A stretch of 64,000 nucleotides of DNA from Corynebacterium resistens DSM 45100. Lineage in GTDB: Bacteria; Actinomycetota; Actinomycetes; Mycobacteriales; Mycobacteriaceae. Shown one piece after another: positions 18,226 to 21,419 of the stretch. The DNA lies in assembly GCF_000177535.2 (NCBI RefSeq), contig NC_015673.1:248001-312000 (forward strand), written 5' to 3'. A model generated the notes under the pieces. The model saw only the letters and a program-made list of their open reading frames with translations. It was not told the DNA's origin and made no database searches. The position numbers and the translations under genes were made by a program. Position 1 is the first letter of the stretch; the number at the start of each line of letters is the position of its first letter.

Positions 18226-18801
18226 TTAGGCATTTACCTCGATGACGAGGTCTGCCAACCGACTGATGTAGTCGGCGACGAAATCCCGGGTATCGGGGTT
18301 CGCAAACGTGCCATCTTCAGAAATGAGAGTGGGGGACTGGCCGAGGAATACTTCGGGTTGCCCCACACTTGGCATATCGAAATAGGACAGTGCTAGGCGA
18401 AGGTTCTTCTGGGAGCTATACCCGCCCATGCGGCCAACCGAATGGCTGATGATGCCCATTGGCTTGTTCCTCCACGCCACATCCGAATTGGGTTTCGATC
18501 CAATGTCGACTGCATTTTTCAAGCAAGCCGGGATGGTGCGGTTATTCTCTGGAGTGACGAAAAGAATGCCGTGCGATTGCTTAATGGAGTGGCGGAATTG
18601 CTGGTATTCACGTGGCTCATGGACATCTGTGACGTTTGGATCGTCGTATTCGAAGTTGTAGAGCGGAAGTTTGCTGATGTCCACAATGCGCACTTCCCAA
18701 TTCTGCGGGAAAAAGGTCATGGCCTGCTTGGCGATTTTGAGTGCGTAAGAGTCGCGGCGTAGGCTGCCGACCAGCACACTGATTGTGTAATTAGGGGACA
18801 T
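18226..18801 (-). CDS. NADPH-dependent FMN reductase family protein
   Basis: A 191-residue flavodoxin-fold reductase of the NADPH-dependent FMN/azo/chromate reductase family. The FMN phosphate-binding loop GSLRRDSYA and the PENNRTIPACLKNAVD segment are typical. The start is set by AAAGGAG 8 bases before MSPNYTISVLVGS; an ATG at 18861 is upstream of it. It is the third gene in the direction nrdI, nrdF, reductase, with 151 bp after nrdF. An attractive inference is that it supplies reduced flavin or reduces NrdI, but a general quinone or chromate reductase role is equally compatible. Confidence 0.85.
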   Translation of the reverse strand: MSPNYTISVLVGSLRRDSYALKIAKQAMTFFPQNWEVRIVDISKLPLYNFEYDDPNVTDVHEPREYQQFRHSIKQSHGILFVTPENNRTIPACLKNAVDIGSKPNSDVAWRNKPMGIISHSVGRMGGYSSQKNLRLALSYFDMPSVGQPEVFLGQSPTLISEDGTFANPDTRDFVADYISRLADLVIEVNA

Positions 18802-18952: not shown

Positions 18953-19957
18953 TTAGAAATCCCAGTCAGTGTCCGCGGTTTCCTCGGCTTTGCCCATGAT
19001 GTAAGAGGATCCAGAGCCGGAAAAGAAATCGTGGTTTTCATCTGCGCCTGGGGTTAACGCGGAGAGTATTTCTGGGCTGACATCGGTCTCCTCCGCCGCG
19101 AAGTGTGGGTGATATCCGAGGTTCATCAGCGCCTTATTCGCGTTGTATTTCACGAATTTCACAACATCAGGCATGAGCCCCAGCGGTTCGTAGAGCTCCG
19201 CGGAGTACAGGACCTCCAGTTCGAAGAGCTTCTCAAGTAGTGCATGAGTGAATTCCGAAAGCTCTGCGGTGCGTTCCGGGTGGTTTTCCAATCCGCGTTG
19301 GAATTTGTATCCGGAGTAGTAACCGTGGACCGCCTTGTCCCTCAGAATCAACCGGATCATATCGGCGGTGTTCGTAAGCACCCCACGAGTGGAAAAGTGC
19401 AGCGGAAGGTAGAAGCCTGCGTAGAGAAGTACCGAGGAAAGGAGGGTAGCCGAAACCTTTCGTTTCAATGGATCCTCACCAAAGTAGTGTTCCAATACGG
19501 AGCGACACCGTTGCTGTAGCACGTCATTGTTGACGGCCCATTCATACGCTGCGTTAATCGACGGGGTGTTCGCCAGCGTTGAAAACACACTCGAGTATGA
19601 CCGAGCATGAACTGACTGCATGAATGCGATATTGGTATATACCGCTTCTTCATGCTCGGTTTGGGCGTCTTGAATTTGACTAATTTCGCCCACTGTTGCC
19701 TGCATGGTATCCAGCAGGGTAAGCCCCGTGAATACCCGCATTGTCAGTGTTCTTTCAATATCGGACAACCCATTCCAATCTTTGAGGTCATTCGACAATG
19801 GAACCTTTTCCGGCAGCCAGAAGTTTGCGGTGAGACGCTGCCAAACTTCTAGGTCTTTGTCATCCTGGACTTTATTCCAGTTGATGGGCCGAATTCTTAC
19901 CCGTGGATTGTATTTGGCTTTCGGAGGTGTAACCGATTCGGCAATTGTCATGTGCAT
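18953..19957 (-). CDS. nrdF: Ribonucleotide reductase R2, class Ie (QSK variant) NrdF
   Basis: A 334-residue R2 radical-generating subunit with the full NrdF fold and the R1-binding tail (ADTDWDF). In metal-dependent NrdF the dinuclear site uses one Asp, three Glu and two His. Here Asp83, His117, His211 and the radical Tyr121 are kept, but the Glu positions are Gln114 (FMQSVHARSYS), Ser174 (TLLSSVLLYAG) and Lys208 (LRDKAVHGYY). I confirmed the three codons as CAG, TCC and AAG. This Gln-Ser-Lys set defines the metal-free class Ie subgroup, in which Tyr is converted to a DOPA radical with help from NrdI (established knowledge). nrdI lies 178 bp upstream on the same strand. No nrdE is nearby. 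Start at MHM or the second Met cannot be separated. Confidence 0.95.
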   Translation of the reverse strand: MHMTIAESVTPPKAKYNPRVRIRPINWNKVQDDKDLEVWQRLTANFWLPEKVPLSNDLKDWNGLSDIERTLTMRVFTGLTLLDTMQATVGEISQIQDAQTEHEEAVYTNIAFMQSVHARSYSSVFSTLANTPSINAAYEWAVNNDVLQQRCRSVLEHYFGEDPLKRKVSATLLSSVLLYAGFYLPLHFSTRGVLTNTADMIRLILRDKAVHGYYSGYKFQRGLENHPERTAELSEFTHALLEKLFELEVLYSAELYEPLGLMPDVVKFVKYNANKALMNLGYHPHFAAEETDVSPEILSALTPGADENHDFFSGSGSSYIMGKAEETADTDWDF

Positions 19958-20115: not shown

Positions 20116-20141
20116 ATGTGAAACACGGACGTGTTTCACAT
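20116..20141 (-). repeat. Inverted repeat over the nrdI stop codon
   Basis: Perfect 12-bp arms (ATGTGAAACACG and its complement) with a 2-base centre, spanning the nrdI stop at 20136-20138. It lies in the 178-bp gap before nrdF and lacks a T tract, so it may stabilise the nrdI message or act as a protein site rather than terminate. Confidence 0.6.
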
Positions 20142-20624
20142 TGATTCCTTGGGCAACCGTTTCCAGAATTCTGTGAGTCCATCCTTGACTCTCTGTACGT
20201 CACGGTCGGTGCCGAGAAGTTCAAAGCGGTACAGTTCGGGCACTGAACACTTCTTCGCGATGATGGGACCTGCGATGCAGAAGTGCTCACCGAAGTTGGT
20301 GTTTCCACTAGTGATCACCCCACGAATGAGCTTGCGATTATCGGGGATGTTCAAAAACTGGATTACTTGCTTCGGCACGGCCCCTTTGAGCTCTCCGCCA
20401 CCGTAGGAAGGAACCACGAGTACGTAAGGGGACGTCACTCGAATCATGCCTTCGACTTTTGGCCTTAAGGGGATGCGCAGTGCTGGTCGGCCCAGTTTCT
20501 GGATGAAACGATGGGTATTCCCCGACGCGCTTGAAAAATAGACGAGATCAGGGGTTTTTTCAGTTTCTACACTGCTTCCTAGGCTGGCGTTAACCGTGAG
20601 CGTGCTGTTGCTGATGGCGGACAT
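20136..20624 (-). CDS. nrdI: Flavodoxin-like protein NrdI
   Basis: A 162-residue NrdI. The flavodoxin FMN loop [16 protein letters not shown], the [17 protein letters not shown] segment and [15 protein letters not shown] are all typical of the family, whose members deliver oxidant (superoxide or peroxide) to the R2 subunit. In class Ie systems NrdI is needed to hydroxylate the tyrosine to DOPA. The N-terminal 25 residues are an extension of low complexity. Upstream lie AT-rich repeats that look like an operator. It probably heads a transcript with nrdF. Confidence 0.95.
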
Positions 20625-20668: not shown

Positions 20669-20700
20669 TGAACTTAAAAGTTCAAAGGATTGAACTTTGA
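20669..20700 (-). promoter_or_regulatory. Repeated TGAACTT half-sites upstream of nrdI
   Basis: TGAACTTAAAAGTTCA (20669-20684) is a near-perfect inverted repeat, followed by another TTGAACTTTGA (20690-20700). On the minus strand a TTGAAC inside it lies about 18-19 bp from TAGACT, so the site would overlap the -35 of nrdI. It could bind a repressor; it does not resemble the NrdR box. Confidence 0.4.
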
Positions 20701-21375: not shown

Positions 21376-21394
21376 TTAGGGTTGCCTTACCTAG
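21376..21394 (+). promoter_or_regulatory. DtxR box upstream of htaA
   Basis: TTAGGGTTGCCTTACCTAG matches 15 of 19 positions of the DtxR consensus TTAGGTTAGCCTAACCTAA. It lies about 90 bp before htaA, as expected for iron repression of the heme cluster. Confidence 0.8.
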
Positions 21395-21400
21395 TTAAGT

Positions 21401-21419
21401 GTAGGCTACGCTAACTTTC
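21401..21419 (+). promoter_or_regulatory. Second, weaker DtxR-like box
   Basis: GTAGGCTACGCTAACTTTC matches 12 of 19 positions of the DtxR consensus. It starts 7 bp after the first box, so two DtxR dimers could bind side by side. Confidence 0.45.

Follow-up and report, generated by a model that had tools for sequence, protein, structure and literature searches.

Corynebacterium resistens DSM 45100 carries, in the 64,000-nucleotide stretch analysed here (positions 248,001 to 312,000 of contig NC_015673.1; hereafter the window, whose own coordinates are used below), a gene pair, nrdI-nrdF, whose ribonucleotide reductase (RNR) R2 protein belongs, by alignment and tree, to the metal-free class Ie (R2e) and bears a Gln-Ser-Lys (QSK) signature. 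This pair probably supplies an alternative, metal-free R2 that would replace the manganese-dependent class Ib R2 (R2b) of the same organism at low manganese, under the control of the regulator MntR. An MntR-type operator stands before the metal-free R2 and is absent from the organism's own metal-dependent R2, which provides a testable answer as to the role of the former, that is, a low-manganese R2. Such a switch would matter for replication in commensal and pathogenic corynebacteria, including during infection since animals then deprive bacteria of manganese.

A class Ie R2 protein of the QSK type

The nrdF gene (18953..19957, minus strand) encodes a protein of 334 amino acids, whose identity was established by a codon check, alignment, a tree and PDB matches. 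The original prediction held that the three glutamates binding the metal centre in other NrdF are replaced here by Gln114, Ser174 and Lys208, the remaining site residues being kept, and the codons read as it claimed: GAT for Asp83 (19711-19709), CAG for Gln114 (19618-19616), TCC for Ser174 (19438-19436) and AAG for Lys208 (19336-19334), with CAT for His117, TAC for Tyr121 and CAC for His211 (all residue numbers fall by 2 should translation begin at the third codon, which is likewise ATG). In an alignment of six NrdF proteins, including the Glu-type NrdF of the same genome (locus L001) and one from Gardnerella vaginalis (L036), which is 67% identical to the C. resistens protein, Gln114, Ser174 and Lys208 align with the three glutamates that bind the metal, and Asp83, His117, Tyr121 and His211 are retained. 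This comparison, of the kind proposed as a check together with the prediction, places the residues at ligand positions. Among PDB entries, 8rag and 8rah match best (E 3e-150); both are structures of the Gardnerella QSK R2e (PMC11846895). Three of the four carboxylate ligands of class Ib are thus Gln, Ser and Lys, and the NCBIfam models label the protein class 1b despite these substitutions. The class Ib NrdF of C. ammoniagenes is of the same family and length (1kgn, E 3e-129; 3mjo, E 5e-109) but has the metal-binding glutamates and a dimanganese-tyrosyl radical (PMC11846895).

When 151 distinct NrdF proteins of the fetched loci are placed on a tree, the 93 of QSK type, those of three Gardnerella loci among them, all group in a single clade (support 1.0), and one change of state is enough; together with the alignment, this upholds the predicted class Ie membership. 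The nearest relative genome (G018) has an NrdF(QSK) that is 97% identical. Among 80 named loci, which hold 82 NrdF genes, the complete DQHYSKH set occurs in 35, the complete DEHYEEH set in 47 (two of which are second copies in Bifidobacterium loci) and a mixture in none, which makes chance or sequencing error an unlikely source of the signature. The family itself is not new: QSK proteins have been reported in 266 genomes, all Actinomycetota and 105 of them Mycobacteriales, with the nrdI-nrdF order in 104 cases (PMC11846895), and the C. resistens protein is therefore a further member of a known family in a known arrangement.

The QSK R2e of G. vaginalis (Bifidobacterium vaginale) contains only traces of metal; when it is co-expressed with NrdI it acquires dihydroxyphenylalanine (DOPA), and in that form it shows activity (PMC11846895). 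It resembles the C. resistens protein in its Gln/Ser/Lys, in the retained Asp/His/His/Tyr, in its NrdI partner and in its clade, and by analogy NrdF(QSK) would be metal-free and carry DOPA at Tyr121. It differs in its setting, since in C. resistens nrdI-nrdF stands without nrdE and alongside a Glu-type system. An inactive remnant, retained by chance in a genome that has a complete Glu-type nrdI-nrdE-nrdF set, would be another way to account for the gene, and in one relative (G130) the QSK gene does contain an internal stop. However, the frame is intact, the seven site residues are invariant in the compared loci, the nrdI lineage matches, the operator is conserved and the Gardnerella protein is active (PMC11846895), so that we give this account next to no credence. 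The stop in G130 (G130:C34:15991-16953, L175) is a TAG and reflects either decay or a sequencing error, in a genome where a Glu-type nrdF is present. Two other genomes (G032 and G156) have two QSK-type nrdF each, which in G156 are found one in an nrdI-nrdF arrangement (L127) and the other after nrdE (L103).

One R1 and two R2 proteins

A NrdI activator, expected of class Ie, is encoded alongside: nrdI (20136..20624, minus strand) specifies a flavodoxin-like protein (PF07972, E 5e-46; TIGR00333 above cut-off), and in a tree of 137 sequences the NrdI of QSK and Glu-type operons segregate with two changes. The C. resistens genome, a single contig of 2.60 Mb, has two nrdF, two nrdI and one nrdE. 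The sole nrdE sits in the Glu-type nrdI-nrdE-nrdF region, whose nrdF (G000:C1:499230-500030, G000 being C. resistens) is the second, Glu-type gene that the original prediction had advised searching for. C. resistens is not dependent on NrdF(QSK) alone. Because there are two nrdF and one nrdE, both R2 proteins presumably share the single NrdE. Their C-terminal tails are similar (...SGSGSSY..GKAE.T.D.DWDF) and both conserve W47, Y121 and Y319, positions that we take to be associated with radical transfer. A published inference is that R2eQSK is able to function with an R1 shared with a dimanganese R2 (PMC11846895).

The same coexistence is seen across the genus. The Lys motif, searched for as a codon pattern, was found in 110 of 242 Corynebacterium genomes (this pattern was preferred to an initial Gln-codon pattern, found in 58 of 242, which missed variants such as FMQA; both may overlook unusual codons or residues), and the Glu-type pattern in 237. 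All 110 Lys-type genomes, C. resistens included, also carry a Glu-type nrdF, and the five genomes without the Glu-type pattern (G048, G065, G177, G189 and G190) also lack the Lys-type one. This conflicts with the literature, where 40 Corynebacterium species of a GTDB r214 set are counted as having no RNR other than QSK (PMC11846895); the genome sets differ.

An MntR-type operator before nrdI

A perfect palindrome of 22 base pairs, AAAGTTCAA-N4-TTGAACTTT, lies at 20677-20698, 52 nucleotides from the start codon of nrdI. With a weight matrix trained without the window and G018, it scores 30.0 bits, the next best site in the window scoring 12.3 bits. In a leave-one-out test, 29 of 63 distinct upstream regions of nrdI-nrdF(QSK) reach at least 15 bits, against one such site among 652,612 positions elsewhere in these loci. 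A broader rule for palindromes of the same spacing (15 points) is satisfied by 40 of 63 QSK nrdI-nrdF and 12 of 25 QSK nrdI-nrdE-nrdF upstream regions vs 0 of 55 Glu-type nrdI-nrdE-nrdF ones, for which the 300 nucleotides before nrdI were covered; single shuffles seldom passed this rule, and maxima of 20 shuffles reached at least 15 in several regions. The thresholds (15 bits, 15 points and, for strong sites, 20 bits) were fixed after inspection of the data. A second palindrome, TGAACTT-TT-AAGTTCA (20669..20684), overlaps the operator and has a half-site in common with it; it is seen in this promoter only and could be a second binding register. A promoter scan gave no signal above shuffles, and Rfam gave nothing at gathering scores within 15-26 kb of the window.

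The same box recurs in C. resistens before genes for manganese import: before the Nramp gene mntH (L232, 23.7 bits) and between an MntR-like gene and the gene for a Mn/Zn-type ATP-binding cassette (ABC) binding protein (L239, 23.4 bits). It is also found in the gap before sodA (L219, 27.1 bits); since this gap is divergent, with an LDH-like gene on its other side, the box there could serve either gene, in C. resistens as in G018. No box was detected at the Glu-type nrd locus of the same genome (L196, 13 kb, best 7.7 bits) or at its dtxR locus (L240, best 3.3 bits).

A scan of 18 genomes returned 49 sites, 18 at QSK nrdI and 31 elsewhere. The flanks of all 31 were fetched, and 14 lie at manganese-type genes (12 of 16 among sites of at least 20 bits), which are (i) Nramp genes in five genomes (C. 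resistens, G098, G121, G200 and G170), (ii) ABC-type genes in two (a ZnuA-type transporter in G005 and the mntR/ABC gap in G240), (iii) sodA in five (C. resistens, G018, G120, G121 and G240) and (iv) in two (G139 and G225) gene X, the flavin reductase-like gene described below. Six of the sites are in C. resistens, at nrdI, sodA and mntH and at three further places (13.2, 14.3 and 24.3 bits). The 24.3-bit site (L233:2451, G000:C1:100450) lies, as judged by eye, about 86 nucleotides before a lipoprotein-like gene, which is a possible further member of the regulon.

Two DtxR-family genes are present in the genome. The product of the one at L239 is closer to the MntR than to the DtxR model (157 bits against 83, neither reaching its cut-off) and has PDB relatives among which SloR and ScaR rank above DtxR/IdeR; that of the other, at L240, is closest to the DtxR model (284 bits, just under the cut-off of 290). 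C. resistens thus has an MntR-type regulator distinct from DtxR and a common operator before its manganese transport genes. The set of genes with the box (manganese importers, mntR and sodA) is an MntR-like set, and on this ground we infer that MntR binds the 20677-20698 box in C. resistens. The MntR box of C. glutamicum, TGTTCAATGCGTTGAACA, fits this reading.

The parallel in C. diphtheriae

An independent line of support comes from C. diphtheriae, for which the list of MntR-regulated genes comprises nrdI (DIP1923), nrdF2 (DIP1924), mntABCD, sodA (with the opposite sign), piuB and an 'oxidoreductase' (DIP2262) (PMC13001254, Table 3). Manganese-dependent binding and repression are reported there for nrdI-nrdF2 (PMC13001254). 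The likeness to C. resistens extends to the nrdI-nrdF order, to regulation by MntR and manganese (which in C. resistens would be by the box above) and to the companions, namely mntABCD, sodA and an oxidoreductase numbered beside sodA. In genome G039, which is probably C. diphtheriae, a QSK NrdF stands behind a perfect box (it is nearest, among named ones, to that of C. pseudotuberculosis, at 80%) and the order sodA - box - X is found, so X is beside sodA in G039 whereas it is beside nrdF in C. resistens. The main text of PMC13001254 makes no mention of class Ie, a metal-free R2 or DOPA. A link between class Ie and MntR was not found in open-licence PMC literature, a coverage that leaves outside the main MntR regulon study (Peng et al., 2021). 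The reading proposed here joins two subjects that were not found connected in the literature searched, namely class Ie chemistry and the control of C. diphtheriae nrdI-nrdF2 by MntR.

Control by iron has to be considered as well, since the original prediction was of deoxynucleotide synthesis that could survive iron and manganese starvation, in a region next to iron-regulated heme uptake. The nrd region is adjoined by htaA and by an hmuT-like gene (hmuT being assigned by eye), and high iron strongly represses the MntR targets named above in a C. diphtheriae dtxR mutant (PMC13001254), both of which would suit a nrdI-nrdF pair belonging to a DtxR iron-starvation response together with the heme-uptake genes. 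DtxR-like sites are present nearby only at 21376-21414, the best of them (21376-21394, plus strand) having 4 mismatches to the DtxR consensus and lying 88 nucleotides before htaA, as would suit regulation of heme uptake by iron. These sites are, however, more than 670 nucleotides from the nrdI box, with one gene between, and are therefore not placed to control nrdI, before which no DtxR site with 5 or fewer mismatches to this consensus was found. In gel-shift, purified C. diphtheriae DtxR failed to bind the promoter of nrdI (dip1923), and the effect in the dtxR mutant is attributed by its authors to iron probably acting via MntR (PMC13001254). Direct control of nrdI-nrdF by DtxR was thus rejected, and membership in an iron-starvation response is very improbable, although iron may act on the pair indirectly, via MntR. 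The manganese part of the predicted starvation survival gains from the MntR-type operator before nrdI; its direct tie to iron and heme uptake is not supported.

Mechanism and weight of the evidence

In the proposed mechanism, (i) ample manganese would keep MntR on the 20677-20698 palindrome and nrdI-nrdF repressed, (ii) low manganese would take MntR off the operator, as at the manganese importers, and derepress the pair, (iii) reduced NrdI and oxygen would produce an oxidant with which Tyr121 is hydroxylated to DOPA and the radical is formed, (iv) R2e would hand the radical, via its very similar C-terminal tail, to the single NrdE that it has in common with R2b and (v) X, in the same regulon, may pass electrons from NADPH to NrdI, which is the least certain step.

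Several observations weigh against replacement of R2b under MntR control. In 34 of the 63 distinct nrdI-nrdF(QSK) upstream regions the box is under 15 bits, and some QSK nrd promoters carry a different palindrome, AACTACG-N6-CGTAGTT, instead (sometimes in tandem), or neither. Scans of whole loci also put sites of at least 15 bits at Glu-type nrd genes, in one of the 11 loci from Corynebacterium (G191, 17.0 bits) and in one of the 45 named ones (16.5 bits). The 18 scanned genomes were preselected for having a box at nrdI, and 17 of the 31 sites elsewhere, with 4 of the 16 strong sites among them, lie at none of the genes tested for. Binding of MntR in C. resistens is predicted from the genes at which the box recurs, and the QSK identity of C. 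diphtheriae nrdF2 depends on assigning G039 to that species, for which the nearness of its NrdF to that of C. pseudotuberculosis and the order sodA-X speak. As for the G191 site (L179:7112), nrdE is on one side of it and the Glu-type nrdF on the other; this genome lacks the Lys-type pattern, and R2b itself may be manganese-regulated there.

The operator is common to nrdI, sodA and a flavin reductase gene, and the oxidant in R2e chemistry is considered to be of the superoxide type (PMC11846895), which together could point to an R2 adapted to oxidative stress or superoxide, its control by MntR merely reflecting the protection that manganese affords against oxidants. Judged by the MntR-type box and its targets, with no search aimed at OxyR- or SoxR-type sites, this is unlikely, albeit less so than the iron response. 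The box targets also include manganese importers and the ordinary partner, R2b, needs manganese, which is why substitution of R2b at low manganese is the simpler reading.

Gene X, a candidate NrdI reductase

Gene X (18226..18801, minus strand; 191 amino acids, with its ATG at 18801 and AAAGGAG ahead) begins 151 nucleotides past nrdF and encodes an NADPH-dependent FMN reductase-like protein (PF03358, E 4e-29 for the longer reading frame) with the PDB relatives 1rtt, 3u7r and YieF (3svl), that is, ChrR/YieF-like. Members of the same sequence family include, besides YieF and 1rtt, a chromate reductase (3s2y). Disregarding matches below 35% identity, X adjoins nrdF at 15 of the 35 named QSK loci vs 0 of 45 named Glu-type loci, in six genera (Corynebacterium, Brevibacterium, Leucobacter, Mycetocola, Actinotignum and Actinomyces) and in the orders nrdI-nrdE-nrdF-X, nrdI-nrdF-X and X-nrdF; it was not seen in the flanks of the remaining 20, Streptomyces, Bifidobacterium and Gardnerella included. 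In two Actinotignum loci (L028 and L033), X is directly upstream of the QSK nrdF, in the usual place of nrdI, and the 8-kb flanks that were fetched showed no nrdI.

Across the genus, X is present in 84 of 242 genomes. A Lys-type nrdF accompanies it in 77 of the 84, vs 33 of the 158 genomes without X (Fisher p 5e-28, uncorrected for kinship), and in 63 of these 77 X is at most 2.5 kb from the Lys codon. In the 14 genomes where it is elsewhere, a box of at least 15 bits precedes X in eight, several of them close relatives (15.2 to 24.8 bits; G039, G139, G225, G148, G036, G188, G134 and G133, the last three, G188, G134 and G133, having no such box at nrdI itself), and one below 15 bits in five (G090, G120, G171, G112 and G080), the site in G124 not being scored apart from that of nrdI. 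Among the seven genomes with X and no Lys-type nrdF, the box is found before X in G226 (29.3 bits) and G030 (15.6 bits) and is below 15 bits in the other five. By these patterns X would often belong to the same regulon and often be a same-orientation neighbour of nrdF(QSK).

NrdI needs a reductant, and X is a concrete candidate for its missing physiological reductase, a role that the family of X, its adjacency and the common operator make conceivable, at odds somewhat below even. Tentatively, and rather less than likely, R2e, its own NrdI and X would form a three-part MntR module for manganese starvation, in which one R2 is swapped for another on a shared NrdE; if true, this would explain the purpose of class Ie where a metal-dependent R2 is already present. 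A general role for X when manganese is scarce would account for the data equally well, if not better. We lean slightly towards X being unrelated to R2e chemistry, a flavoprotein of the quinone or chromate reductase type that belongs to the manganese-starvation regulon and is merely nearby: 7 of the 84 X genomes do without a Lys-type nrdF, with the box retained in G226 and G030, 33 of the 110 Lys-type genomes do without X, and relatives of at least 60% identity occur in Psychrobacter, Tenacibaculum and Neisseria. Against such indifference stand the association with Lys-type genomes and the proximity given above (kinship again uncorrected), as well as the restriction of X to QSK among the named loci, over six genera and varied gene orders. 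The idea of X as an exclusive partner of QSK was discarded, the family being broad and the seven genomes just mentioned being exceptions. A narrow look at the literature found no link between a PF03358 member and NrdI.

A variant palindrome

The other palindrome, AACTACG-N6-CGTAGTT, present in part of the upstream regions that score below 15 bits (for example at L129, L128 and L127), with C. tuberculostearicum among the species that have it, implies that control by the MntR-type box is not universal. In 12 genomes chosen for having it (G106, G129, G149, G156, G179, G027, G074, G232, G052, G056, G071 and G224), all 16 sites with at most 1 mismatch are at QSK nrd loci and none is at manganese genes (fetched coordinates locate 14 of them, and position alone the two on G156:C49). 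A reversed control pattern gave 0-3 matches per genome, so that chance matches elsewhere would be unsurprising. The view that it is the same MntR box found no support in this distribution, and it may instead be the site of a separate regulator of class Ie RNR. In G120 (L190), G030 (L245) and G111 (L246), a second MntR-family gene, whose product is 45-46% identical to C. resistens MntR, is found near X. Variant palindromes with GTTCG/CGTAG arms lie between the two genes in all three, which makes this second MntR-family gene a candidate regulator of the variant boxes.
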